Shown piece after piece: positions 309 to 22,868 of a stretch of 64,000 bases of DNA (position 1 is the first letter of the stretch; each line of letters begins with the position of its first letter). Location: positions 62,001 to 126,000 of the forward strand of contig JAOAIJ010000039.1 of the NCBI GenBank assembly GCA_026414765.1, written 5' to 3'. The stretch is from Clostridia bacterium (lineage in GTDB: Bacteria; Bacillota; Clostridia; Acetivibrionales; DSM-27016). The notes below the pieces were generated by a model that was not told the origin of the DNA, ran no database searches, and was given only the letters and a program-made list of their open reading frames with translations. The position numbers were made by a program, and so were the translations under genes.

Positions 309-1511
309 TCATTTTGTTTTTTCTACGCACTGCATGATTCTTTCTGCCGAGCGGTTGTCCGTATACTGGTTAACCAGGCCGTTTACAAGCTTGCGCTCAG
401 CTTTGTAATATTCTTTGTCCTGTAAACATTTCCTGAGACACTGTACATACTCATCAAAGGTTTTTGTTTTTGGTCCCGGCGTCCAGAAGTCATAATCTTC
501 AAATATTAAGCCTCTGCCGCTTTTGTATGTATTCAGGTCACTGGTGACAAAAACTATCGGGCGGTCAAGGAGCAGATAATCGAAATATATTGAAGAATAA
601 TCGGTAACCAGCACATCAAATAATCCAAGAATATCGTACATGCTCACGGTGTTGGTATTAAAGGCATCTGATTTTACCAGCACTGAATTTTGCGGCAGAT
701 CCAGTTCAGAACCGCTGTACTGTTTTTCCTCAAACGGATGGAGCTTAATAACAAGCAGTGCATTATGTGATTTGAGCAGCTCATCCAGTTCATTCCTTTG
801 ATAATCAGGAAAGTTGAACACATTTTTGTCAAGCTTTTTTCCCTCTACCCTTCCCATACCGGCTCTGAAGGTAGGGCAATACAGTATAAGCTTATCATAT
901 GCATCCAGATTTTTACCGCAAACCCTGGAAAGTACAGCTCTGTCTTCAGGTGAGAAAAGCTTGTCATTTCGGGGCTGGCCTGTGATAACAACTTTTCTTG
1001 CATCTATATTGAAGCAGCTTGCCAGTGCATATCTCATTATTGGTGAAGTGGATATGAATATATCAGATTTTTTACTTACTGTTTTGAAGCCTTTTATATC
1101 TTTTTTTGTACAAAGATTGTCAATATAGCCCATAGATTTCAGAGGCATGCCGTGCCATAGGGTTATTAAAAACTGATTTGAAGACTTGATGGCGATATGC
1201 TGACTGTGTGTACAAGCAATATATCTGGAAGTTAAGAGGGCTTTTATCCCCTTCCATGACCAGGAATATTCACAGGTTATGTTTTCTCTGCTCAGCTTCT
1301 CAACAAGGCTCTTATCGCTAAAAAGCCATACAGGTTCATATTTTTCGGAGCCGGCAAGGTATTCCCAAAGGCCCTTCGCATTATCTGAGAAGTCGGGAAG
1401 GCTGCTGAGGACTATTTTATTATCTTGTTTTGGAACAAACTCATTCAATGTCCTCAAAAGTAAAATCCTGCTTTTATATATAATCCTGTTTAGTAATGTA
1501 CTAATGCTCAT
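309..1511 (-). CDS. CDP-glycerol:poly(glycerophosphate) glycerophosphotransferase family protein
   Basis: 400 residues, which covers one catalytic domain of the TagB/TagF family. These enzymes move glycerol-phosphate (or a related polyol phosphate) from its CDP carrier onto a lipid-linked wall polymer at the inner membrane face. Visible family motifs are LWHGMPLK (118-125), GQPRND (178-183), YCPTFR (211-216), KLHP (256-259) and VTDYSSIYFDY (302-312). The start has GGAG eight bases upstream. It sits with a flippase and a nucleotidyltransferase, so the polymer probably carries phospho-alcohol groups. The exact donor (CDP-glycerol, CDP-ribitol or another) cannot be told from sequence. Confidence 0.88.
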   Translation of the reverse strand: MSISTLLNRIIYKSRILLLRTLNEFVPKQDNKIVLSSLPDFSDNAKGLWEYLAGSEKYEPVWLFSDKSLVEKLSRENITCEYSWSWKGIKALLTSRYIACTHSQHIAIKSSNQFLITLWHGMPLKSMGYIDNLCTKKDIKGFKTVSKKSDIFISTSPIMRYALASCFNIDARKVVITGQPRNDKLFSPEDRAVLSRVCGKNLDAYDKLILYCPTFRAGMGRVEGKKLDKNVFNFPDYQRNELDELLKSHNALLVIKLHPFEEKQYSGSELDLPQNSVLVKSDAFNTNTVSMYDILGLFDVLVTDYSSIYFDYLLLDRPIVFVTSDLNTYKSGRGLIFEDYDFWTPGPKTKTFDEYVQCLRKCLQDKEYYKAERKLVNGLVNQYTDNRSAERIMQCVEKTK

Positions 1512-1539
1512 AGTCTCTACTCCATATTACTATTTTACT

Positions 1540-3054
1540 TTATTTCCTTACAATTAACTGCTTTAGTTTCACTATATCACTTTTTGACAATCCGGCAATT
1601 AATACTATAGCATAGCTTGCTAAAACTGCCAGGCCTGCTTCGGCGATAAGGTAAAATCCGTCCAAATCAATAACCTGGTTTAAAGCAAGCGTAAGTACTA
1701 CACTGAATACGGTTCCAGCTAGTACCTTGATTATGCCGGTATCAAAGGGCAATATGCCAAATTTGATTTTAACATATATTACTTTTACGATGTTGTATAT
1801 AGCGAGACTTGAGGAAGAGGCAACAGCAGCGCCTGCCATACCATAGGCCGGTATCAGAGCTGCATTTAGCGTGATGCTCAGTACTGCAAGTATTATCTGT
1901 GTATACAAATCCATTTTATAGTGCTTGGAGAAACTTATTATGCCGCCGCACATTCCAGTTCCCACATTTATCAGCTGCCCTATTACTACTATGGAAAGAA
2001 CCACAGCTCCGGAGGCATAGACGGAACCTTCTCCACCGCGGGCGGTACCCAGAAGGGAAAGCAAGGCTTTTGAGTATATAACGATCACTACGGCAACAGG
2101 AAGTGTTGCTATCAAAGACCATTTTTGTGTGAACTTGTATACGTTATCCAGCTCTGTGATATTGTTATCGCCGATGTACTTACCCATCAAAGGGTGTCCG
2201 ATCATGGCGAGAGAGTTTCCGAATATTGCAATAGTTCCTCCTATAAGAACAGCGGTATTATACACCGCAAGCTGTGAATTGTCCGTAAACCAGTTGACCA
2301 GGATTCTATCCGCATAGGCAGCCAGCACGCTTGCTATTGCAGACACTGACATAATCAGACCATAAACATCCTGTTCAATGAACTTATTTCTGTTCAGATA
2401 CTTTTTTAGTACGTTCCTGATTTTTATAGGTTTTATATACCTGTTTTTTGCGATGACATAAAATAGGACAAGATTTATTGCGATCAGCAGATATAAATAA
2501 TAATGTATATAATTAATGACAGTCAGCCTGAAACGCAGGCAAATAAGGATCAAAAAGAAATTACCGCTTTTCAGTAAAGTATTTACTATGAATGACTGTG
2601 CCGATGTTTTATACCAGGCCCTTAGATAACTGCCTAGTATCTGCTGCAATCCGGTATTTACTATATAAAGGGGTATAACATAAAAATAAGTACCTATAAG
2701 TTGATTTTTTATAAGTATATTTACAAAAAAAGGTTTGAAAGCATAAATTAAAAGAATACATATGGCAGATACCAATATATTCTTTGTTATCTGATAAATA
2801 AAGAGGTCTGATGCTTCAGACTCCTTATCTCTGTTAATCCCGGGTATCACTCTTATGAAAATGTTGTTTATCCCAATGACAGTGATTGTAGATAGTATTG
2901 CCGTAGCATTGATAATAGCATTGAATAAACCTACATCTTCTACTGAAAAGGTTTTGGTGATAACCAGTATGCCAAGGAAGTTAAGGCACATTGCCGTAAA
3001 AAGTGCTATCAGGTTAAGTATTCCTTCCTTAAAAATCAGTTTATTTGCATTCAT
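1540..3054 (-). CDS. Polysaccharide flippase (Wzx/MATE-like oligosaccharide exporter)
   Basis: 504 residues with about 12-14 hydrophobic segments spread along the length and short charged loops, as in the polysaccharide biosynthesis (Wzx/RfbX) branch of the MOP superfamily. The N-terminal FKEGILNLIALFTAMCLN and the internal pattern of paired helices fit this family. The expected role is to flip an undecaprenyl-linked repeat unit from the inner to the outer face of the membrane. The gene lies 28 bases behind the nucleotidyltransferase-flippase junction and reads in the same direction as the glycosyltransferase and glycerophosphotransferase, so it is probably co-transcribed with them. Confidence 0.85.
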   Translation of the reverse strand: MNANKLIFKEGILNLIALFTAMCLNFLGILVITKTFSVEDVGLFNAIINATAILSTITVIGINNIFIRVIPGINRDKESEASDLFIYQITKNILVSAICILLIYAFKPFFVNILIKNQLIGTYFYVIPLYIVNTGLQQILGSYLRAWYKTSAQSFIVNTLLKSGNFFLILICLRFRLTVINYIHYYLYLLIAINLVLFYVIAKNRYIKPIKIRNVLKKYLNRNKFIEQDVYGLIMSVSAIASVLAAYADRILVNWFTDNSQLAVYNTAVLIGGTIAIFGNSLAMIGHPLMGKYIGDNNITELDNVYKFTQKWSLIATLPVAVVIVIYSKALLSLLGTARGGEGSVYASGAVVLSIVVIGQLINVGTGMCGGIISFSKHYKMDLYTQIILAVLSITLNAALIPAYGMAGAAVASSSSLAIYNIVKVIYVKIKFGILPFDTGIIKVLAGTVFSVVLTLALNQVIDLDGFYLIAEAGLAVLASYAIVLIAGLSKSDIVKLKQLIVRK

Positions 3055-3085
3055 TGGTTTTCCTCTGTTTCAGAGCATCTGAATA

Positions 3086-3757
3086 TTATTGTGTAAACAA
3101 TTCAGTTGCTATCTTCCAGTCTTCTTCAAAGTCTACTTCAATACACTTGAAATTGGATATGTTTACTATGTTAAACTTCTTACCGTTATCTATAAGCATC
3201 TCTATACCCTTTTCAAAATAATCGTTATCGGAGCAGTTTTCAAGTGCAGATTTGAAGTTCTCTATATCCTCTTTTGAGATTTTGTTTATTCCTACAGCTT
3301 CTCCATGAGCATCTTGTACCTGTTTAGATATAGCTGTCAGCTGGTTTTTGTTATCTGCTTTATACTTGACTTCCTCTTCGCCGCATTTTGAGCTGTTGAC
3401 AGCTATAGCATTTCCAGCCTGGTTTACCATATGTGCGATTATTTCTTCATCAAATATTACGTCTCCGTTTGTCCACAGTACATCGTCATTCATATCTCTG
3501 ATAGCGCATAACAGACTTTTGGAGGTATTTGTAACATAATATACCGGGTTATATCTATAAAATACTTCAGGGAAGCTTTCCATTATCAGACCCATCTTAA
3601 AGCCTACAACAACATATATTTCATTTATTCCGTTTTTTCGGAGTATTCTTATTTGCCTTCCAAGAATAGTCTCACCATTCGGCAGTTTATTGAGTGATTT
3701 CGGGTATGGTTTTCCTAGCCTGGAACCAACCCCTGCTGCTAGTATTACTGCTTTCAT
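3086..3757 (-). CDS. LicC-like sugar/choline-phosphate nucleotidyltransferase
   Basis: 223 residues. The N-terminal LAAGVGSRLG motif and the following PKSLNKL lysine segment are the nucleotide-binding signature of NTP transferases, and NGDVIFDEE (about 96-104) supplies the metal-binding aspartate. Length and layout match the short LicC/phosphocholine cytidylyltransferase-like branch rather than longer GlmU or RmlA proteins. It would make a CDP- or UDP-activated precursor (phosphocholine, another small phospho-alcohol, or sugar phosphate). AAGGAGG lies directly upstream of the start at 3757. Placement beside a CDP-alcohol transferase gene suggests it makes that enzyme's donor, but this is inference. 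Confidence 0.8.
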   Translation of the reverse strand: MKAVILAAGVGSRLGKPYPKSLNKLPNGETILGRQIRILRKNGINEIYVVVGFKMGLIMESFPEVFYRYNPVYYVTNTSKSLLCAIRDMNDDVLWTNGDVIFDEEIIAHMVNQAGNAIAVNSSKCGEEEVKYKADNKNQLTAISKQVQDAHGEAVGINKISKEDIENFKSALENCSDNDYFEKGIEMLIDNGKKFNIVNISNFKCIEVDFEEDWKIATELFTQ

Positions 3758-3791
3758 ATATTGCCTCCTTTTACTTGTATAAGACCTGTAA

Positions 3792-4757
3792 TTATTTTCC
3801 TGACCGGGACAATGCTCTCAACAAAACAGGATGGGTAAGCAGTATCTTCTTAATAAGAAGCTTTGTTGAGTGAATTGTCATTACCGGTTTGTAATCTTTG
3901 ACATATTTATACAATTCATCATTTATGAGGTCGCCAATAACTGCTTTTCGGTTTTTGATTTCTTCATATAGGCAGTGTATGGATACACCTGCAATCCTGT
4001 ATGTGCTTAAAATATCAATCAGGACTTTCTTATCATAATGCGGTATGCTTATTTGCAGATCCAACCATTCTTTGAGCCTTTTCCAGACCAGGATTTCACG
4101 TGTTCTGTCCGGTGAAGCGGTCAGTGAATCGCTCCTCCTTCTGTACAGTGCAAGATAATCTTTAACGGCACATACTTCAACAAAATATGTGACTTTTGAG
4201 AAAAATTCTATATCCTCGGCCATACTGCAACCTTCGGTAAAAAATAACCCATTGTTGAGTATAAGATCTTTTTTGATAACCCATGTACTTGTCCAGCCTA
4301 TTGCCTTATCCAGAAGCAGTTCTTTAAGGATTTTGCCCTCGTAAAACTTGCCCGGCATTTTCTTAAAAGGTTGACCGATGTTGAAAAACTCCCGGTATCC
4401 GCAGTAACATGCATCAAGACCTGTTGCATTAAGCATGGATATTTGTGCTTCAAGCTTTGTTTCCAGCCATAGATCGTCACTATCGAGAAATGCGATATAT
4501 TCGCCAGTAGAATTTCTGATGCCTACATTCCTTGCACTTGAAACACCGCCGTTTTCCTTATATATATATTTTAAATTACTAAACCGGCTTTGCATTTTTT
4601 TTACTATATCCGCGCTTTTATCCCTGCTCGAATCGTCTATTACAACTACTTCAATATTCTTATAGGTTTGGTTTAAAACGCTTGTAAGAGTTTCTTCAAT
4701 ATACCTTTCCACATTATACATAGGAATTACGACAGAAACCAAAGGGTTAGACAGCAT
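3792..4757 (-). CDS. Family 2 glycosyltransferase
   Basis: I place the start at 4757 (GGAGAGG six bases upstream) rather than an upstream ATG at 4793 that lacks a ribosome binding site; this gives 321 residues beginning MLSNPLVSVVIPMYN. The GT-A fold signature is clear: VSVVIPMYNVERYIEETL, then VVIDDSSRDKS and FLDSDDLW with the metal-binding aspartates. The C-terminal third is variable. It probably adds one sugar to a lipid-linked surface glycan. The donor and acceptor are unknown. Confidence 0.9.
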   Translation of the reverse strand: MLSNPLVSVVIPMYNVERYIEETLTSVLNQTYKNIEVVVIDDSSRDKSADIVKKMQSRFSNLKYIYKENGGVSSARNVGIRNSTGEYIAFLDSDDLWLETKLEAQISMLNATGLDACYCGYREFFNIGQPFKKMPGKFYEGKILKELLLDKAIGWTSTWVIKKDLILNNGLFFTEGCSMAEDIEFFSKVTYFVEVCAVKDYLALYRRRSDSLTASPDRTREILVWKRLKEWLDLQISIPHYDKKVLIDILSTYRIAGVSIHCLYEEIKNRKAVIGDLINDELYKYVKDYKPVMTIHSTKLLIKKILLTHPVLLRALSRSGK

Positions 4758-4904
4758 GTTGTTCCTCTCCGTTAAATGGCCATTTTTGACCATGCTAAGT
4801 ATAGTTTAGCACTATGATATTCGTATGTCAAACATGTGCAGGATAGGGTCAAGCGGGAACCTGGAGATAACGAAAAGAGATATTCCTTTGCCAAATGACT
4901 TGTT

Positions 4905-6005
4905 CTATAGCTGTGTCGTATGAGAACCCTGGATCTTTGAATGAATACCCGGCGTTTTTTTACCCACACCCCCAAAAAGAGTGGCAAAAGGCGTGAGACT
5001 TATTACATAGGTGAATATGAGTGAAAGAGCTAGGGTAAGTAAAAACAAAAGTACCATTCCCGGATTATTTGCTAAAACAGAATTAAGTCCAAAACTGCGG
5101 AAGAATGTAATTATCAAGCTTAATACCAACATGTGGCTTAGATATAGTGTATATGATTGTGCAGATATCCAGCATATAGTATTCCTTAGTGCAGGTGTAT
5201 CCGTTTGAAACCGCTGCAAGACAGAGTAAAAGGCGAAGAAGGATAAGAGACAATACAGCATGGTGCTGGGCTTTATTGAGGAAAACCCGGTTCCGGTAAT
5301 TCTACTGTCGACCAAAAGAATAAAAAGACCTGCGAACCATAGTGCAATAAGTTGTATCCTGTTGTTCTTTATTCTAACCTTCACTTTTTCTGTGTTTTCT
5401 GATAAATACATGCCGAAAATGAAATAAAAAAGCCAGGTAGGGAAAAATATATAATAGGGAATAATGAACTTGGGAAGATGTACTGCTTTTAAAAGAGACA
5501 TATATACTGCTGTTTGAAAAAACAGTGTTAGTAAAAAGCTGGAAGATATCAAAGCTTTAGGGTATTTTCCTAATAGTACTTTTAAAAATGGGTAAAGTAG
5601 GTACATCTGAATTATGATTATGACAAAGTATAGATGAGGGTATGCGGTTCCCCTGATTATATGTGTCAGTGACTCAACTAGAAACCCACTTTTATAGTAA
5701 ACCGAAGAAAGGTTGCTTCTATTCTCGAAAAGTATATATATAATGCTCCACACCAGATAAGGAATAAGGATTTTCTTAAACCTTTTTGATAAAAAGTTTA
5801 GGTAGCTTAATTCTCTGTCTGCATTTGAAAAATGCAGGAGGAAGCCTGACAGCAGAATGAATATAGGAACAGCATAGCGTACGAGTTGGTTGCTGTAATA
5901 GGCAAAACTGCTGGTGGAGGAGTATATTGCGGTAACATGTATTATGATTACCGAAATTGCGGCAATTACCCTAATCTGATCGAATTCATATATTCTTCGG
6001 TTCAT
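4905..6005 (-). CDS. Acyltransferase 3 family membrane protein
   Basis: 366 residues with about ten transmembrane segments. The N-terminal YEFDQIRVIAAISVIIIHVT contains the arginine and histidine typical of acyltransferase-3 (WecH/OafA-like) enzymes. These integral membrane proteins O-acetylate or O-succinylate surface polysaccharides. The start is preceded by GGAG seven bases away. It stands between a glycosyltransferase and a secreted protein on the same strand, which supports a role in decorating the polymer made here. Substrate position is unknown. Confidence 0.88.
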   Translation of the reverse strand: MNRRIYEFDQIRVIAAISVIIIHVTAIYSSTSSFAYYSNQLVRYAVPIFILLSGFLLHFSNADRELSYLNFLSKRFKKILIPYLVWSIIYILFENRSNLSSVYYKSGFLVESLTHIIRGTAYPHLYFVIIIIQMYLLYPFLKVLLGKYPKALISSSFLLTLFFQTAVYMSLLKAVHLPKFIIPYYIFFPTWLFYFIFGMYLSENTEKVKVRIKNNRIQLIALWFAGLFILLVDSRITGTGFSSIKPSTMLYCLLSFFAFYSVLQRFQTDTPALRNTICWISAQSYTLYLSHMLVLSLIITFFRSFGLNSVLANNPGMVLLFLLTLALSLIFTYVISLTPFATLFGGVGKKTPGIHSKIQGSHTTQL

Positions 6006-13526: not shown

Positions 13527-15350
13527 ATGAAGAAGGAATTTACTTTCAGGTTGGCAATAGTATGCTTAATAGTAATACTTATATATGAGTTTGGGATAGG
13601 CCCGACAATTGGCGGCAATAAGAAGAACAGTGAATGGGCTAAGGGAAAGATTACTGCCGAACAGGGAATGTATGACGTAGTAGTAGTAGGGGAAGAGCCG
13701 GAGGGTATAGCTGCAGCTGTTTCCGCTGCAAGAGCCGGAGCCAAAACCCTTCTGGCGGCACAAAGCGACAACCTTGGAGGTGTTATAGCACAAAGCCTTC
13801 TTACCGACTTGGAAACAAGTCAGGGCCCGAAAGGGGAACTGCTTAACAAAGGCTTCTATTCCGAGCTTTATAGCAGGCTTGGCAAGAATTTTACAACAGC
13901 AAGGTATCTCAGTGTAGTTAACAGTATAACTAATAAAGAGAAGAACCTGGAGATATTATACAGTGTTAAAGTTCAGGCACCTGTTCTTGAAGATAATATT
14001 ATAAAGGGCGTAAGTACGGTCATAGATGGTAAAAGGCGTGATTTATCAGGTAAAATTTTTATTGATGCTACAAGAGAAGGAGATTTGCTGACTGCCTGTG
14101 GAGTGCCTTATTTCAAAGGCTCTGAAGATCTAAATCTAAAGAAAAGCTTTTCGCCTGCATATCTGAATTTTGTAGTGGAAGGAATAAGTTCTTCACAGAT
14201 TTCACAAGTAAAGAAACTACCTGAGTTTTTTTCTAAAATTCATAAATATCAGATATCACAGATAAATGCAGTAATAAAAAATATTGATATAACTCCTCAT
14301 GGAAGCAATAAGGCGGTAATCAGAGGTATTGAGGTATGGGGGGTTAATGCAGACGACAAAAAGGCTGTTGACGCTGTTTACAGGGAAGCGGCAAATGAAG
14401 CTTCAATTTTTACGGACTTCCTGAAAAAAGAATTTAAAGAGTTTGAGGGAATAAAGTTTTTAGGAGCCGCAAATAGAATGTATATGAGAGAATCCACTCA
14501 TTTCATAGGGGAATATATGCTTAGTGTAAACGACATACTTGATAACAGGGATTTTAGTGACAAAATTGCAGTCGGCTCACATCCTGTAGATGCGAGCAAG
14601 TTCGTCAGAGGAAGCAGCTATATCATCGGCAAGCCTGTTATTTACTCTATTCCCTTAGGTTGTATCGTGCCTCTTAAAGTAGACAATTTGCTTATGGTCG
14701 GCAGCAAAGCATCATTTTCGTCCCTGGCTGCGTCCAGCGCAGGAGTTTTGAGCGTAGGAATAGCCATGGGGCAAGCAGCAGGTATAATATCTGTATATTC
14801 GATTATAAAGGATATTGCACCAAGAGATCTGGTAAGACAGAAAAATGCGGACATAGAGAAGGAAATCCAAAATCTGTTGAAGGAGCAGGGACTATATCTG
14901 CCTAAACAGGAATCAAAATCTAAAAATCAGGACGAATGGTCATATCCTTACATAAGGCAGTTGATTAATCTGGGCTTAATAGCAGGGGGAACGGAAAACG
15001 ACTTCAGAACGGAAAAGCCTGCAAGTCAAGAAGAGTTTGCAATGCTCCTGCTAAACGGGATATATAGGCTTGCCCCCGAAAAATACTCATTAGAGCTGGA
15101 CGCAAGAATCAGAAAGTATTTTAAACAAAACAGTCTATCCAAGGAAAAAGCAGGAGAAGTACTGCTGGCACTCTATAATAAAAGCTTCAAAGCAGGATAT
15201 GCATATATTGAAGCTTGTAAATACGGATATATAGATAATATCATGCAGCAGCGCCTGAAGAAAAACAGTGAAATAAGGATGGAAGATGTTTTTTACTTAA
15301 GTTGCTATAACATTAAGAAGTTTACAGGAAAGAGGATATTAGAAGAATAG
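13527..15350 (+). CDS. Membrane-anchored FAD-dependent oxidoreductase with SLH-like tail
   Basis: 607 residues. Residues 7-25 form one membrane segment. The FAD-binding strand-turn is DVVVVGEEPEGIAAAVSAA (about 50-70), followed by the FAD_oxidored-type IDATREGDLLTACGVP. The rest fits FAD-dependent dehydrogenases of unknown substrate. From about 470 the sequence changes: YPYIRQLINLGLIAGGTEND and KPASQEEFAMLLLNG resemble an SLH module, though the usual FxD motif is missing. GGGGG precedes the ATG. The gene is convergent with the operon encoding a CsaB-type protein, which fits surface display. The redox partner is unknown. Confidence 0.75.
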   Translation: MKKEFTFRLAIVCLIVILIYEFGIGPTIGGNKKNSEWAKGKITAEQGMYDVVVVGEEPEGIAAAVSAARAGAKTLLAAQSDNLGGVIAQSLLTDLETSQGPKGELLNKGFYSELYSRLGKNFTTARYLSVVNSITNKEKNLEILYSVKVQAPVLEDNIIKGVSTVIDGKRRDLSGKIFIDATREGDLLTACGVPYFKGSEDLNLKKSFSPAYLNFVVEGISSSQISQVKKLPEFFSKIHKYQISQINAVIKNIDITPHGSNKAVIRGIEVWGVNADDKKAVDAVYREAANEASIFTDFLKKEFKEFEGIKFLGAANRMYMRESTHFIGEYMLSVNDILDNRDFSDKIAVGSHPVDASKFVRGSSYIIGKPVIYSIPLGCIVPLKVDNLLMVGSKASFSSLAASSAGVLSVGIAMGQAAGIISVYSIIKDIAPRDLVRQKNADIEKEIQNLLKEQGLYLPKQESKSKNQDEWSYPYIRQLINLGLIAGGTENDFRTEKPASQEEFAMLLLNGIYRLAPEKYSLELDARIRKYFKQNSLSKEKAGEVLLALYNKSFKAGYAYIEACKYGYIDNIMQQRLKKNSEIRMEDVFYLSCYNIKKFTGKRILEE

Positions 15351-15382
15351 AGACAGGGGATGGTTCCCTATCTCTGTTTATT
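15349..15382. terminator. Terminator between convergent genes
   Basis: The stem AGAGACAGGG (15349-15358) pairs with CCCTATCTCT (15366-15375) with one mismatch and is followed by TTTATTT. It starts inside the stop codon of the oxidoreductase and lies next to the end of the converging TagA-type gene, so it may serve both strands. Confidence 0.6.
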
Positions 15383-16121
15383 TGATTTTATATAATCCCA
15401 AACGTGCGAATACGGCGTAAATGACAAATTTGGGCAGCTTTAGCATCCGCTTGAAACGCCAGGGCTCTTTATACAATCTGTATAGCCACTCCAAGCCATT
15501 ATTCCGGAAAAAGTCCGGAGCAAGACTTGCTTTGCCTGCATATATGTCAAGACTTCCGCCTACACCTATACATATCTTGACATTCAGTATGTCTTTATGC
15601 TCATAAATCCACTTTTCCTGCTTCGGAGCGCCAAGTGCGACCAACAAGATATCAGCTTCCGAAGAATTGATCTGATTTACTATATCAGGATCTTCATCCT
15701 TTGAGAAATAACCGTTTCTACAGCCTACGACCTCAATCCCGGGATATTGCGATTTAAGCCTTTCAGCAGCTTCTTCAGCTACACCGGGTTTACCCCCGAA
15801 AAAGAAATACCTGATTTTTCTGTCTAAGGCAATACTGAAGGAGTTCCTAGTGAGGTCTATCCCGGATACCTTTTCCGGTACCTTCCTGGCCAGGATTTTG
15901 GAAGCCAGTACTACCCCGGCTCCGTCAGCTACAAGCATATCGGCTTCATTTAGTATGTTTCTCAGATACAGGTCCTTTTGTGCATCCATTATTATTTCTG
16001 CATTTGGAGTATATATAGTATGGAGTTTGTTTTTTGAGATAAATGACTTCACTATATCTACCGCCTGATGCATTGTTACGCTATCAATTTTTATCCCCAT
16101 TATGTTTTGTGTATTTCTCAT
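15378..16121 (-). CDS. WecG/TagA/CpsF family glycosyltransferase
   Basis: 247 residues, whole-family length. Diagnostic segments are YTPNAEIIMDAQKD, ADMLVADGAGVVLASKIL with the catalytic aspartate, FFFGGKPGVAEEAA and LVALGAPKQEKW. TagA enzymes add N-acetylmannosamine to undecaprenyl-diphospho-N-acetylglucosamine, making the linkage unit of wall polymers. It is the last gene of a minus operon, 16 bases behind the glycosyltransferase-CsaB fusion. TagA and CsaB together are the usual starter and pyruvylation enzymes of secondary cell wall polymers that hold S-layer proteins. Confidence 0.92.
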   Translation of the reverse strand: MRNTQNIMGIKIDSVTMHQAVDIVKSFISKNKLHTIYTPNAEIIMDAQKDLYLRNILNEADMLVADGAGVVLASKILARKVPEKVSGIDLTRNSFSIALDRKIRYFFFGGKPGVAEEAAERLKSQYPGIEVVGCRNGYFSKDEDPDIVNQINSSEADILLVALGAPKQEKWIYEHKDILNVKICIGVGGSLDIYAGKASLAPDFFRNNGLEWLYRLYKEPWRFKRMLKLPKFVIYAVFARLGLYKIK

Positions 16122-16137: not shown

Positions 16138-18366
16138 TTATCTATCCGGAGTGCTTTCTATCAAATCAACAGCGATACGGGCATTTTCAAATGCTTTTTC
16201 CTTTAATTGGGAGGTCACTGCATACAGGGTATTTCTTATTGATTCCTTGTTTCCCCATACCTCATTCATCACTGCCGTAAGCCTTTCAAAGCTCAAGTCC
16301 TGTACATGCCCTGCTGAAGCCTGATGAAAATATTCCAGAAACCCTTCAACCTTTGTATCGTAAACAAGACCCACTACTGGTATACCCAGATTAGCTGCGT
16401 AGATAAGAGAATGCAGCCTCATTCCCACAAGCATTTCCATCCTGCTGATGATACCGATAATGTCATTTACTTCATACCTTCCCCTTATTATATATCCCTT
16501 GTACTTCATTTTGGACACTATACTTTCCAAAACCACGAGATCTATAGGCTGCATAGGTATAAACAGGGGAACAGCGCTATATTTCTCTACCGTATAGTCG
16601 GCAGCTTTTGCTATGATAGCTTCATCATAAGTGATATTGCTTTCGATTATACGTGCGGAAAAGCCTATGAATGGCCCTGTTTCCTTTATTCCTTCAGACT
16701 CCAATATAGCATCTACCTCATTTTTAGGCGCTGCCTCTACAGTCAGGGCGGGATCTGCAGTAACTACTATTCTTGGCTTGCTTACACGCAGATTTTCTAA
16801 TTCCTGCATTGATAAATCTTCTCTGAGCGTAATTACATCAACCTGATTAAGAACGCTTCGCGTCAATATTTTATTAATGCTCTTGTTTATAGGGCCGATT
16901 CCGTTAGCATACACCATGACTTTTGCGCCCATTTTTTTTGCAAGCCAGGTTACTCCAAGGTAGTAAAGCAGAGAACGTGTGCTTGTACCGTCCTGCATCA
17001 GATTTCCGCCACCGTTAATAAACAGCTTGGATCGTTTCATTATTGACAGGGCCTTATACAGGTTCAGCCTGTTAATTGAATCGACATTATTATGCTTACC
17101 GGTTTCTACCGGACTCTTTGACAAAACGACGATTTTAACATCATCTTTATAAGTTTTCAAATTATTTATGATAGCCATAAGTATTGCATCGTCGCCGCTG
17201 TTCTTAAAGCCGTAATACCCTGACAGAATTACATCGTAGCTGTTTTTTGCCTGTTTTGTTCTTGAAATCGTATCATATATCCGGAGCTGGGTTTTGCACA
17301 TACTGCTCATTGAGAATATGTCCTTTGCCTTAACGTAAATCCTTTCACCTATCTCTCTTCTTTTTGCAGTGTTCCTCGATAGCTCCACTATATATTCTGA
17401 AAGCTTCAGATAGTCCCCCGGTGCAAATAAGAATCCGTTTTCCCCACTGTCGATAAGATCGGGAATGCCGCCTACCCTGCTGCTTACAGTAGCTTTTTTC
17501 AGTAAAGCGCCCTCAAGTATGGAGTATGGAAACCCTTCACTTACGGAAGAAAGCACATTTATATCAATAGCATTCAGGAAGTTGAATGATTCCTTTATAT
17601 AGCCAAGGAAGAAAATATTACCGGTTAGGCCTTCGGAAGTTACCATTTGTTCCAGTGCTTTCCTCTCATCTCCATCTCCTGCTATTAAGAATTTTATGTT
17701 TGAGTTTTTTTCTATTACTTCTTTTGCCGCCTGGATGAATATTTTTACTCCCTTAACAGGGGTGAGCCGTGCAAGTATGCCTACGAGTACATCATCCTTG
17801 CCGACGGGCAGGCCAAACTTGCCGACAAATTCTTCTCTTGAGCAGACGACAGGCTGATTGTCAAAATCAATCCCATTAGGGATTGTAAATAATTTGCTTG
17901 GCATAAATTTTCTTTCAATAAGCGTCTCTTTAATATTCTTCGAAACACAGGTATAATAATCTATAAAGCGAAGAGCAACGGTATTTATAATACCGAAGCT
18001 GTACCTTCTTACAGCGCTATGCATATAGTCAAGTTTATAGTCACTGTGGACTGTTGTTACAACAGGGAGTCTGGTAAACATTTTGGCAAGTACAGCAATC
18101 ATGTTTGCCTTTGCTCCGTGTGAATGTATTATCTGGTAGTTTTCTTTCCTTATTAAGCTGACAACATGCTTTATATCAGTGAATATATTTCCGGTGCGGA
18201 TTATTTCCGTATTAATACCCATATCCTGGGCCTCTTCAGCAAATGCCCCAGGACGGAAGCTTACCAGCTTTACATCTATATGTTTTCCAAGATTCTTAAC
18301 CAGAGACACGACATGGGTTTTTGCTCCCCCAATATCTCCGCCGCCGGTTAAATGAAGTACTTTCAT
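16138..18366 (-). CDS. csaB: Fusion: family 4 glycosyltransferase plus CsaB polysaccharide pyruvyl transferase
   Basis: 742 residues, about twice the length of either parent. Residues 1-370 form a GT-B glycosyltransferase (LHLTGGGDIGGAKTHV start, ILARLTPVKG at 197-206, E-x7-E in SEGFPYSILEGALL at 276-289). Residues from about 377 are CsaB: YDVILSGYYGFKNSGDDA, FINGGGNLMQD and GMRLHSLIYAANLGIPVVG. CsaB adds a ketal-linked pyruvate to wall polymer sugar, the group recognised by SLH domains. GAGGAG precedes the ATG. The junction is continuous with no frameshift. Fusion implies that one sugar addition and the pyruvylation are coupled. Confidence 0.92.
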   Translation of the reverse strand: MKVLHLTGGGDIGGAKTHVVSLVKNLGKHIDVKLVSFRPGAFAEEAQDMGINTEIIRTGNIFTDIKHVVSLIRKENYQIIHSHGAKANMIAVLAKMFTRLPVVTTVHSDYKLDYMHSAVRRYSFGIINTVALRFIDYYTCVSKNIKETLIERKFMPSKLFTIPNGIDFDNQPVVCSREEFVGKFGLPVGKDDVLVGILARLTPVKGVKIFIQAAKEVIEKNSNIKFLIAGDGDERKALEQMVTSEGLTGNIFFLGYIKESFNFLNAIDINVLSSVSEGFPYSILEGALLKKATVSSRVGGIPDLIDSGENGFLFAPGDYLKLSEYIVELSRNTAKRREIGERIYVKAKDIFSMSSMCKTQLRIYDTISRTKQAKNSYDVILSGYYGFKNSGDDAILMAIINNLKTYKDDVKIVVLSKSPVETGKHNNVDSINRLNLYKALSIMKRSKLFINGGGNLMQDGTSTRSLLYYLGVTWLAKKMGAKVMVYANGIGPINKSINKILTRSVLNQVDVITLREDLSMQELENLRVSKPRIVVTADPALTVEAAPKNEVDAILESEGIKETGPFIGFSARIIESNITYDEAIIAKAADYTVEKYSAVPLFIPMQPIDLVVLESIVSKMKYKGYIIRGRYEVNDIIGIISRMEMLVGMRLHSLIYAANLGIPVVGLVYDTKVEGFLEYFHQASAGHVQDLSFERLTAVMNEVWGNKESIRNTLYAVTSQLKEKAFENARIAVDLIESTPDR

Positions 18367-18376
18367 ATATATCTCC

Positions 18377-19315
18377 TCACTGTTTTTTCATCCACTGGAC
18401 CAAATTTTGCAATCCCTCATATACCTTTACTTTTGGCATATACCCTAATATCTTTCCGGCGTTTGATATATCAGCCGCAGAAAATCTTACATCACCTATT
18501 CTTTCCTTTTCATACTTAACGGAAAAGCTGGTCCCCAGAATTTTATTGAGCATTTCTACCAGCTCCTTCAGTGTAATGCTTTCACCACAGCCGATATTAA
18601 TTATTTCAGGTTTTCCTGGCCATTTGCATTTACAGGCAAGCAAGTTTGCTTCAACTATGTTGTCAATATAGACAAAATCCCGTGTTGTGAGGCCGTCTCC
18701 GAAAATAACCGGTTGTATGCCATTCAGCATTTGGGATGTAAAAATTGAAATGACACCTGAATAGAAAGATTTCGGATCCTGTTTCGGGCCAAAAACGTTA
18801 AAATATCTCAACGAAAATACTTCCAGTCCATATACGTTAAAGAATGCTTTGCCGTAGTATTCCTGAGTGAGCTTTGCCACCGCGTAAGGGGAAATAGGAT
18901 CAGGCAGCATGTCCTCTTTGTTTGGTACCCCTGAAGAGTTACCGTAAGCAGCAGCAGAAACAGCCTGGACAATTCTTTTTACAGTCTTGCTTTCAACAGA
19001 AGCTTTAAATAAGTTTAAAGTAGCGGTTACTATACTTTCATTTACTGAAACCGGGTCTTCTATTGATAGTACAACGGATGGCAGTGCTGCATGGTGCATT
19101 ATGTAATCGACTCCGGTTACTGCTTTTTGAGCTGTTTTATAATCAGATATGTCACCGCATATGAATTCTATATCATTTATAAATTCCCGAATATTTTCAA
19201 ATTTTCCTGTTGAGAGATTATCTACAACTCTTACCTTATGACCATCATTCAGTAGTCTTTCAACAATATTGGAGCCTATAAAGCCTGCTCCACCTGTAAC
19301 AAGATACTTATCCAT
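18377..19315 (-). CDS. NAD-dependent nucleotide-sugar epimerase/dehydratase
   Basis: 312 residues. The extended SDR family is shown by TGGAGFIGSNIVERL (N-terminal NAD binding), the serine in VSAAAYG, the catalytic YAVAK, and RYFNVFGPKQDP in the substrate half. The closest well-known relatives are UDP-glucose/GlcNAc 4-epimerases, but the exact sugar cannot be read from sequence. It acts in the cytoplasm to supply a nucleotide sugar. It lies 10 bases before the glycosyltransferase-CsaB fusion and probably supplies its donor. Confidence 0.9.
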   Translation of the reverse strand: MDKYLVTGGAGFIGSNIVERLLNDGHKVRVVDNLSTGKFENIREFINDIEFICGDISDYKTAQKAVTGVDYIMHHAALPSVVLSIEDPVSVNESIVTATLNLFKASVESKTVKRIVQAVSAAAYGNSSGVPNKEDMLPDPISPYAVAKLTQEYYGKAFFNVYGLEVFSLRYFNVFGPKQDPKSFYSGVISIFTSQMLNGIQPVIFGDGLTTRDFVYIDNIVEANLLACKCKWPGKPEIINIGCGESITLKELVEMLNKILGTSFSVKYEKERIGDVRFSAADISNAGKILGYMPKVKVYEGLQNLVQWMKKQ

Positions 19316-19351: not shown

Positions 19352-20731
19352 TTATACGTAAAGTTTATTGTAAACAGCTTTGTTTGTCAATCCTGCGAGG
19401 CAGCTCATAACATCACGGCGTTTCAGATATCCGTTATGGAACGAAGGTGTCCAATCAATATCCTCACCATCGGATATGCAATTCAGAAACTTTTCAAACC
19501 CTTTGACAGATACAGGTTCATTAACCATGAAGTCACCCTTTGACCCCCAGGTTTTTCTAAACCATGACTGCTTTGATGCCAGCATAATTACCTTATAGTA
19601 CGGATGTTCTTTAGAGTTTTGATCATACTGCTCTCTGTGTATTTTGTTCAGAACTTCCGGAGGTGTAAGCATTACTGCAAGTTCCCCGTTTGTCAAAATT
19701 CTGTCAGGCTGGAAAGTGTTGTTCTTATATCCGATACAGTGTCCCAGGATTGCAAGATGTTGTACATATTCAAATGCAGGGTCCTTATCTCCAATATCTG
19801 AAAATGGTGATATCTTTAATAGCTCTGATGCGGTTATAATCTTGTAGCCCGCCTGTGACAGAAGGCGAAGGTGCTCATCAAGGGCATCAGCCACCGGAGT
19901 CTGACGGGACATGTTACAGCCGTCCTTCTGGAATATTATTTGCCCGTTTAGTATGTCAGGGTCACTAAGCAGTGCCTGCTCCAGGGGCTTTACCATCATA
20001 TCTACATCAGTTTTATAGTTTCCGCTTGAAGGCTTCCAGCCCCCGCCATCAAAGCTTGCAGCCAAATACTGATACCCCATGTACTTATACACATCATATG
20101 AACTATGACCTCCGAGTATCCGGTCTATGTAATGCGGGGGGCGTGACAGCTTCATTTCATAGTTTAATTCTGTCAGTACATAATCATGTAAAACCGATAA
20201 GTCGTCTATAACTTCCTGCAGATTTTTATAATATGCTCTGCGTCCATATACTATCTTCATAGGGCCAAAAAGCACATGCCTGTAGCCATGGTTTGACAAC
20301 TCATGGCCTTCGGATATCATGCGCCTTGCCGTTTCAAGCTGGTTTTTTACTCCTCCGGAACTATCTTTTTTGAAATCCGGATAATGGTCAAATTTCATTC
20401 CTCCCCAGGAAAAATAATTGACTTTTCCGGCTTTATCGGGATAGTTGTATTCGGTAGTTCCTATTACATCGAAAGTACCCTTTGCGTCATATCTGCCGAG
20501 TATATCAAGGAGTATGTCTGTTAGGCCCTCATGTGCATACTCTATTTTTGTCAATGGATTAGGAGGCAGCGCACTGGGACCGTCATCAAAAGTCATAGCA
20601 ACATATCGGCCTTTGCTTGACGGAGCAACCCGCTCTATCCGCCTGACAGGGCTTAAATAAAGGCCAGCCAGTTCTTTCTGACGGAGCTTCCTTTTGTGAT
20701 TTATTTTACGCGCTATATCATAAAGAAACAT
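19352..20731 (-). CDS. NodB-type polysaccharide deacetylase with C-terminal SLH module
   Basis: 459 residues. The deacetylase domain has the metal and catalytic motifs MTFDDGPS (46-53), HELSNHGYRH (143-152) and LSRPPH (195-200). An SLH module follows at about 310-355: SPFSDIGDKDPAFEYVQHLA then TFQPDRILTNGELAVML. Unusually there is no clear signal peptide; the N-terminus is basic and not hydrophobic, so surface location is uncertain. The start directly abuts the stop of the PHP gene. Substrates of such enzymes are N-acetyl groups of peptidoglycan or wall glycans. Confidence 0.85.
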   Translation of the reverse strand: MFLYDIARKINHKRKLRQKELAGLYLSPVRRIERVAPSSKGRYVAMTFDDGPSALPPNPLTKIEYAHEGLTDILLDILGRYDAKGTFDVIGTTEYNYPDKAGKVNYFSWGGMKFDHYPDFKKDSSGGVKNQLETARRMISEGHELSNHGYRHVLFGPMKIVYGRRAYYKNLQEVIDDLSVLHDYVLTELNYEMKLSRPPHYIDRILGGHSSYDVYKYMGYQYLAASFDGGGWKPSSGNYKTDVDMMVKPLEQALLSDPDILNGQIIFQKDGCNMSRQTPVADALDEHLRLLSQAGYKIITASELLKISPFSDIGDKDPAFEYVQHLAILGHCIGYKNNTFQPDRILTNGELAVMLTPPEVLNKIHREQYDQNSKEHPYYKVIMLASKQSWFRKTWGSKGDFMVNEPVSVKGFEKFLNCISDGEDIDWTPSFHNGYLKRRDVMSCLAGLTNKAVYNKLYV

Positions 20732-21553
20732 CTAATTTCCGCCTTTCCTGCTTTCTATATCTATCCATCCTTCACAGGCTTTTTTCCCAAAACCTGAAAT
20801 ACGTGAGCATTCAAGAACGAGGGAATAAATCATTTTTAAAATGGGCTTTACAGTCAGAATATATTTCGATGACTTAATGCCCTTATATATCTGGCTTGCG
20901 GGCTCATAAAGCCTATGAGTTGCAGAACCCCAAACCCTCCCGGTGCCGTCCATCAAAGATGATTTTATTTTCTGAAGTATTTCAGTACTATTAGTTTCAT
21001 TCAAAATATCGCATTCCCAGTATGCATTGCCGACTTCTCCAAGCCAGTGGGAGTCACTTCCGGCTGAAAACGGTTTTTTATAGGTACTTAGTGCTTCTAG
21101 TGCCTGGGGATTGGCATGGACATTTCTGCATAGGGAAGCTCTACTGTTATAGACTTCTATGCCGTCGATATGGTTCCATATTTCAGAATCATGTTTTTTT
21201 GAGTATTTATAGGGATGTGCAACAAAAACAAGAGCATTCTGGTCATGGGCTGCGATAGTTAATTCCTTCCAGTTAAAGCGGCCGCGGGAATCTCTTGCGA
21301 GACCTTGATTTTCAAGCCCTTTGTTAAGGAAATAAACAAGAAAGTGGCCCTGATCCGTTGAGTATTCTACTCCTGGTATAATAATCATGTCTTTAGGAGC
21401 AATCATTAAAGCTTCTTCGCTGCCGTTAAAGCTGTTGTGATCAGTGATTGAAATCCCCTGTAAACCACGGTTCTTTGCCTTTTCTATTATGTTTTTTACA
21501 CTGCTGCAGGAGTCGTGAGAGTGTCTTGAATGTATATGAAGATCAAATTTCAT
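20732..21553 (-). CDS. PHP-domain metal-dependent phosphoesterase
   Basis: 273 residues. The polymerase and histidinol phosphatase metal motifs are present: DLHIHSRHSHDS at the start, TDHNSFNG, FVAHPYKYS and GSDSHWLGEVG. These bind a trinuclear metal centre and cleave phosphoesters. It could act on a phosphorylated sugar or a signalling nucleotide. The start codon overlaps the stop of the ATP-grasp gene (ATGA), and its own stop touches the deacetylase start, so the three are translationally coupled. Confidence 0.88.
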   Translation of the reverse strand: MKFDLHIHSRHSHDSCSSVKNIIEKAKNRGLQGISITDHNSFNGSEEALMIAPKDMIIIPGVEYSTDQGHFLVYFLNKGLENQGLARDSRGRFNWKELTIAAHDQNALVFVAHPYKYSKKHDSEIWNHIDGIEVYNSRASLCRNVHANPQALEALSTYKKPFSAGSDSHWLGEVGNAYWECDILNETNSTEILQKIKSSLMDGTGRVWGSATHRLYEPASQIYKGIKSSKYILTVKPILKMIYSLVLECSRISGFGKKACEGWIDIESRKGGN

Positions 21554-22761
21554 TGCTTTTTCCTCTTTCCTTTCCTCAATAGCTGCATCACATAATAAAA
21601 AGACGGGCGCCAGTCCCTTAGCTCTAATACGCCATCAGATATTCTCGGGTTTAGTAATTGCAATACAAAGCTTGCCAGAAATCTCAGCTTATTACTTGAA
21701 AGCTTCAAATACCCGGGTAGGGACATAATATCCTGAAATAAAAAACGCATTTTTTTGCCAAGCTTGTAACGGCTTGGGTGCCATTCATATAACCGGGTTT
21801 CAGCTTTTTCACCCATGGAAGCACGGTAGTATGCATAGGGTATGTCACATTTTGCTGCAACAGAGAGTGGGAGGCTTCCCCAGAACCGCGGATTTATTTC
21901 CATCAAGCGGATGTCTCCTTCAGGATCTCCTTTGAACTCCACCATAGCAACTCCCTGCCATTTCAATGCCTTCAGAAGTGTTACAGCATAGCTGACCAGT
22001 CTGTCGTTCCAGATGCTTTCACATAAACAACTTGGTCCACCTGTAACAGGATATTCACGCAGTCGTTTATGACAGAAAATTTCCAGAGGATCACTGTTTT
22101 TGTCGAAAACCACTGAAACACCGTACCCACTGCCGTTAATATATTTTTGTACAATAGGACAGGATTGTATGCTATGCATTTCTTCAAACACTTTTATAAA
22201 GCGGTCAGGGGATTTTACAATACTATATCTCTTTTCTGGTTTGAATTTAAGGATTTCTCCTTCTCTATATTTGATAACAACCGGATATGCAAGTCTTGCA
22301 GCAAGCTCTTCAATTGTTTCATTTTCGTACAGAGTAGTGGTTTCAGGGCATGGTATACCTTTACAGGCTGCTATCTCGAGCAGCTTGCCGGTATCATTCG
22401 CGATTTCTATGCTTTCTGGTGAAGGGACAATAAAGCTTAAATAAGGTTCAAGAACATCCTTATGCTTTGAAACAGCCGTAAGACTATCCAACCCGACAGG
22501 GATGAGCACAGGCTTTACAAATTGAGAATCTGTGGAGACTGAAGCTAGATTTATTATTTTGTTAATAAAAGCTGTGTTTTCATATGGAGCGCCCGGTAAA
22601 AATTCCTTTTTCCGTGTGTATCTGGAAAAAAAGCCTAAGGCTGATTTATATGGAGTAGTATCATATTCGACTGCAGTTACGGGAATGCCTTTTTTCCCAA
22701 GTGAACGAATTATGGCAAGGCTCATACGGTATCTGACATCTGTTACAATAACGCTATTCAA
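21550..22761 (-). CDS. ATP-grasp domain ligase
   Basis: 403 residues if started at the TTG at 22761 (AGGGAG nine bases upstream; the start is then NSVIVTDVRYRMSLAIIRSL); a TTG at 22797 has no site. It has a pre-ATP-grasp Rossmann-like part, then VVIKYREGE and LMEINPRFWGSLPLS, the ATP and magnesium signature. Members join a carboxylate to an amine (or thiol/hydroxyl) with ATP. The substrate is unknown. It leads the six-gene operon and is coupled to the PHP gene. It could modify the polymer or build a peptide or lipid tail. Confidence 0.83.
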   Translation of the reverse strand: MNSVIVTDVRYRMSLAIIRSLGKKGIPVTAVEYDTTPYKSALGFFSRYTRKKEFLPGAPYENTAFINKIINLASVSTDSQFVKPVLIPVGLDSLTAVSKHKDVLEPYLSFIVPSPESIEIANDTGKLLEIAACKGIPCPETTTLYENETIEELAARLAYPVVIKYREGEILKFKPEKRYSIVKSPDRFIKVFEEMHSIQSCPIVQKYINGSGYGVSVVFDKNSDPLEIFCHKRLREYPVTGGPSCLCESIWNDRLVSYAVTLLKALKWQGVAMVEFKGDPEGDIRLMEINPRFWGSLPLSVAAKCDIPYAYYRASMGEKAETRLYEWHPSRYKLGKKMRFLFQDIMSLPGYLKLSSNKLRFLASFVLQLLNPRISDGVLELRDWRPSFYYVMQLLRKGKRKKQ

Positions 22762-22868
22762 TAGGTACAACTCCCTTGTGGTTTGAAGATATATCAAATA
22801 TGGTCTGTTCTATATCAAAATAAAAAATTTCTGGCATAAAAACTGCGTTACCCATATATATTGTTTAG

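Follow-up and report, generated by a model that had tools for sequence, protein, structure and literature searches.

A single gene in the window, by which we mean the whole 64,000-nucleotide stretch of clostridial DNA that was analysed, joins a family 4 glycosyltransferase (GT4) to the pyruvyltransferase CsaB in one open frame of 742 residues. Proteins of this kind are already present in public genomes: the fusion is real, ordinary for its group, and a moderately useful clue to function. It is the norm in the order to which the source organism belongs and a class-level habit of the Clostridia. With moderate confidence we favour a description of the protein as a bifunctional enzyme of secondary cell wall polymer (SCWP) assembly at the inner membrane face, in which the GT4 half adds a sugar to the same lipid-linked glycan that CsaB modifies.

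Table 1 The fusion gene, its parts and its two immediate neighbours in the window
Feature	Position	Strand	Description and evidence
GT4-CsaB fusion gene	16138..18366	-	742 aa; ORF, Pfam, NCBIfam, AlphaFold2
GT4 half, residues 1-370	17257..18366	-	retaining GT-B fold; Pfam, conservation, AlphaFold2, fold search
Linker, residues 371-376	17239..17256	-	AlphaFold2 model
CsaB half, residues 377-742 + stop	16138..17238	-	Pfam, NCBIfam, conservation, AlphaFold2
WecG/TagA-family ManNAc transferase	15378..16121	-	16 bases downstream of the fusion gene; the genome's only member
NAD-dependent sugar epimerase/dehydratase	18377..19315	-	ends 10 bases before the start of the fusion gene

The two-part nature of the protein is apparent from several kinds of analysis. 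Pfam places GT4 domains at residues 12-169 and 188-343 and a PS_pyruv_trans domain at 389-670, and the NCBIfam model for CsaB, TIGR03609, matches residues 379-686 at 252 bits, above its curated cut-off of 213.1. An AlphaFold2 model, computed from an alignment of 37 fusions taken from the window and the loci of its relatives, has high confidence along almost its whole length (mean pLDDT 90.7, pTM 0.85). In this model the last GT4 helix ends at residue 370 and the first CsaB strand starts at residue 377, which leaves a linker of six residues. The original prediction had read GT4 and CsaB as sharing one frame with a junction near residues 370-377; ORF, Pfam and TIGR03609 agree on the former, and the modelled linker on the latter.

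How far the architecture extends was judged by frame length, a proxy for fusion in the counts for order, class and phylum; GT4 content was checked in a set of 108 loci. Both genomes examined from the window genome's family carry the fusion (2/2). Within the order 58 genomes were searched, 56 of which have a CsaB above the cut-off, and 50 of these 56 frames are at least 700 residues long. Three of the six shorter frames are separate CsaB genes (G031, G032, G057), and the other three (G035, G038, G040) are truncated, either at contig ends or by an N gap, with G038 and G040 judged from coordinates. G045, with a CsaB below the cut-off, and G050, with no CsaB match, hold gene pieces that run into contig ends. 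Across the class, 204 of the 391 genomes searched match at 1e-40; among the 150 best-scoring rows listed, 90 are at least 700 residues long, 58 at most 410, and two lie in between. A sample of the phylum (299 genomes) gave 147 listed rows outside the class, one of at least 700 residues, nine of 600-699 and 137 of at most 530.

These counts bear directly on what had been said of the fusion before. It had been taken as unusual, a view that does not hold for an architecture seen in 50 of 56 frames of the order and 90 of the best 150 rows of the class; the original prediction had itself named frequent occurrence in the family as a ground for refutation, and the fusion is indeed frequent. When databases were compared for the same domain order and for separate genes, fused and separate forms both turned up across Clostridia. 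The accompanying worry that an assembly artefact or a lost stop codon had joined two genes is refuted by recurrence: numerous independent genomes, named isolates among them, encode the fusion as well, and the chance of such an error here is negligible.

The N-terminal half belongs to GT4 by its GT4/GT1-type Pfam domains and by the presence of an EX7E motif. In the 37 fusions compared, R200, K205, E277 and E285 are invariant; the last two are presumably the glutamates of the EX7E motif of this family. A degenerate GT4 half was ruled out by the same four invariant residues, and judging by them the half looks active. Among the matches listed, its closest solved folds are the retaining UDP-sugar enzymes HepE, MshA, BshA and PglA. 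Sequence searches of solved structures gave only GT4 relatives among the matches listed, with none for the CsaB half, and in the fold search with the model the matches listed likewise fell on the GT4 half only.

For the CsaB half, conservation can be followed in fused and separate forms alike. All 108 distinct CsaB domains compared carry R515, R650, H652 and K672, and 107 of them carry R572. In CsaB of P. alvei the residues R148, R207, R306, H308 and K328 are PEP-binding or loop residues tested by mutagenesis or docking (PMC10435577). R306, H308 and K328 correspond to R650, H652 and K672 by exact motif spacing rather than by alignment with the P. alvei sequence itself, and R148 and R207 were paired with R515 and R572 as the invariant arginines of their regions, again independently of such an alignment. 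Residue 519, the equivalent of R148 by plain offset, was dropped for the invariant R515. By this pattern the CsaB half also looks active, and it is the only PS_pyruv_trans pyruvyltransferase of the window genome.

A broader view is obtained from the 108 distinct csaB loci. Their upstream partners form two clearly separate GT4 subfamilies, types A and B, the window's being of type A. Type A is fused in 53 loci, lies directly upstream as a separate gene in four and further upstream in six, and in both loci examined of these six a Wzy_C polymerase gene stands between GT4 and csaB. Type B is fused in ten loci and a separate gene directly upstream in 12. In 23 of the 108 neither type occurs on the csaB strand of the sequenced flank examined. 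A stricter regular expression for EX7E matches 47 of the 53 type-A fusions. From the type-B partner in the ten fusions examined the first Glu of this motif is missing (by eye), and type B may differ in mechanism from type A. The lone listed row of at least 700 residues outside the class is a GT4-CsaB fusion of 746 residues, whose GT4 half by eye resembles type B.

A tree of CsaB, of the 'quick' kind with weak forks and some long branches, calls for at least 16 changes among six partner states. On it the 53 type-A fusions fall into more than one clade, and forcing them to share one origin costs 115.9 log units (p-AU 7e-6), so that such an origin is rejected. Together, these two results imply that fusion, splitting or partner exchange occurred more than once. 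In one clade close to the window's CsaB, eight of ten members have a separate upstream type-B GT4 and two of ten a separate type A.

The partnership extends to the gene on the other side of csaB. Among type-A fusion loci with enough sequence, tagA is directly downstream in 37 of 51, and within the order in 28 of 32; it is not the next gene in the other 14 of 51, nor in nine of ten type-B fusions. Two genomes of the order with a separate CsaB are instructive here: G031 (locus L172) and G032 (L117) keep a stand-alone type-A GT4 beside tagA, which in G031 follows it directly, and their CsaB comes from a distant clade and is located elsewhere or divergently. GT4 thus stays with tagA even when its own CsaB has been replaced. 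Outside the class, six of the nine rows of 600-699 residues were examined. In one, CsaB stands by itself in an over-long frame; the other five (L185, L186, L187, L188, L190) are CsaB-TagA fusions with a WecG/TagA ManNAc transferase at the CsaB C-terminus. The row GT4-csaB-tagA is therefore fused at either junction depending on lineage. This speaks for a common intermediate on which all three enzymes act.

In the window genome there are 27 SLH matches, spread over 16 frames, one WecG/TagA gene, six Wzy_C matches, and a wecB-type epimerase and a PF00953 transferase about 0.5 kb apart on contig C16. On sequence grounds the set for SLH/pyruvylated-SCWP display appears complete, with SLH proteins, TagA, and counterparts of TagO and MnaA.

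Further genes of the window were noted as well. Convergent with tagA, a FAD-dependent oxidoreductase (13527-15350, plus strand) has a weak C-terminal SLH match, and homologues of it are found near the csaB locus in L006, L117, L130, L131 and L134. Anaerobacterium chartisolvens (L006), whose fusion is 65% identical over residues 1-737, has an NAD-dependent sugar epimerase/dehydratase at the same place relative to the fusion gene. Upstream of the epimerase in the window are polysaccharide deacetylase, PHP-domain and ATP-grasp genes (19352-22797, minus strand), in an order that is the same in A. chartisolvens and was not seen in the other compared loci; the tail of the deacetylase is SLH-like by eye. 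A second polysaccharide-type row (309-6005, minus strand) holds genes that by eye are flippase-like, family 2-like transferase, nucleotidyltransferase-like and acyltransferase-like, and a Wzy_C match (G000:C39:60032-60448) lies just outside the window.

What might the joined enzymes do? TagA of P. alvei, an inverting transferase that uses UDP-ManNAc, adds beta-D-ManNAc, and CsaB attaches pyruvate to the ManNAc of the lipid-linked disaccharide (PMC6030368). The pyruvylated repeat is made there by TagO, TagA and CsaB from a cluster for which section 18 of PMC6801904 reports no GT4, so that a GT4 is no general requirement for a pyruvylated SCWP, and section 48 of the same review terms the steps after pyruvylation elusive. 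It is because of this chemistry, and of the rest of the pathway set in the genome, that we assign the GT4 half to the lipid-linked glycan on which CsaB works. TagO would provide GlcNAc-PP-undecaprenyl, TagA from the next gene would add beta-ManNAc to it, and the CsaB half would form the 4,6-ketal on this ManNAc with pyruvate from PEP. Most likely one step after CsaB, the fused GT4 half would then add a further sugar, probably alpha-linked, from a UDP-sugar; this donor is probable by analogy, in view of the resemblance to the UDP-sugar-using retaining enzymes HepE, BshA, MshA and PglA. Being joined, the two halves would hold their active sites together on a single intermediate that is membrane-bound and short-lived, and the finished SCWP would be the wall ligand of the cell's SLH-domain proteins. 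The sequences themselves show the domains, the conserved active-site residues, the order of the genes, the repeated joining and separation of these three genes, and the presence of the remaining pathway genes and of SLH proteins; both activities, the donor and acceptor of GT4 and which of the last two steps comes first are inferred. Counting against an assembly-line reading are the 23 of 108 loci without a GT4 of either type on the csaB strand of the flank examined and the fusions in which tagA is not next (14 of 51 for type A, 9 of 10 for type B).

Other roles for the GT4 half have to be weighed against this scheme. One is that it adds the very ManNAc that the CsaB half pyruvylates, as the covalent joining of the two domains might suggest and as the 14 of 51 type-A loci without tagA as the next gene would allow. 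Yet the genome's only WecG/TagA gene follows 16 bases downstream, and for P. alvei it is proven that TagA transfers ManNAc with inversion. GT4 enzymes, in contrast, retain the anomeric configuration (PMC6801904, section 51) and would not form a beta-linkage; with the alpha-linkage expected of it, the window's enzyme is poorly suited to the addition of beta-ManNAc, which renders this role quite improbable. The same chemistry speaks to the coupling in the original prediction, by which the fusion could ensure that each newly added sugar is pyruvylated: in P. alvei the pyruvylated beta-ManNAc comes from the inverting TagA, and here tagA is next door, so that this part is not supported. Its link between CsaB and SLH domains is supported, since TIGR03609 is passed, the PEP-site Arg, His and Lys are kept, the genome has 27 SLH matches, and this is its sole pyruvyltransferase. 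The proposed coupling suits the CsaB-TagA fusions outside the class better.

It is also conceivable, if unlikely, that the GT4 and CsaB halves compete for O4 of ManNAc: a unit would be extended by the one or capped with pyruvate by the other, in a ratio set by the fusion. In favour, neither active site looks degraded, and in B. anthracis the backbone runs via ManNAc O4 with the 4,6-ketal on the terminal ManNAc only (PMC6801904, section 18); the P. alvei chain of the same section, however, runs via O3 with every repeat pyruvylated, which leaves no competition, and the bond between repeats may come from Wzy instead of GT4. More speculatively, and with a similarly small chance of being right, such a built-in switch might set the number of SLH-binding sites per chain, GT4, CsaB and TagA forming a physical assembly line whose junctions are variously fused by lineage. 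The GT4 half could, finally, serve another glycan, the fusion merely co-regulating two envelope enzymes or anchoring CsaB on the membrane side. A partner drawn from two different GT4 subfamilies and the many genomes in which a separate CsaB suffices would fit with this, but the position of the partner and its neighbours are the same in fused and split loci, and the GT4 of G031 and G032 remains with tagA after loss of its CsaB. We consider this possibility doubtful.

GT4 enzymes that recur beside or inside CsaB, together with the CsaB-TagA fusions, offer a concrete candidate for the enzyme after pyruvylation, and the fusion a single polypeptide in which this candidate next enzyme could be assayed. 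In the part of the open-licence PMC literature covered, we found no published description of a GT4-CsaB or CsaB-TagA gene fusion. CAZy lists clostridial 'pyruvyltransferases' of C. stercorarium and C. thermosuccinogenes as GT4 (PMC6801904, section 5.2/51). That review presents the listing as a pyruvyltransferase classification, and its main text uses none of the terms fusion, fused or bifunctional. These two proteins probably share the architecture of the window's, and an N-terminal GT4 half would explain the listing, for which the fusion thus offers a reason.

Comparison with known systems places each half on familiar ground. HepE, BshA and PglA share with the GT4 half the GT-B fold and the EX7E motif, at TM-scores of 0.70-0.84 by target length; for MshA two of four rows fall in this range and the other two at 0.50-0.51. 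Identity in the rows of all four is 17-23%, and their acceptors differ among themselves. The C-terminal half passes the cut-off of the model, TIGR03609, that covers the 4,6-ketal pyruvyltransferase CsaB of P. alvei, and it retains the spacing of the PEP-site residues R306, H308 and K328. Both organisms have tagA in the csaB gene cluster (PMC6801904, section 18 for P. alvei). The csaB gene of P. alvei, at 1209 bp as reported, has no room for a GT4 half, whereas in the window 370 GT4 residues are joined N-terminally. The CsaB-TagA fusions outside the class, like the window's protein, join CsaB to a transferase from the GT4-csaB-tagA row; they carry TagA behind CsaB and no GT4 in front, whereas the window's fusion has its GT4 in front.
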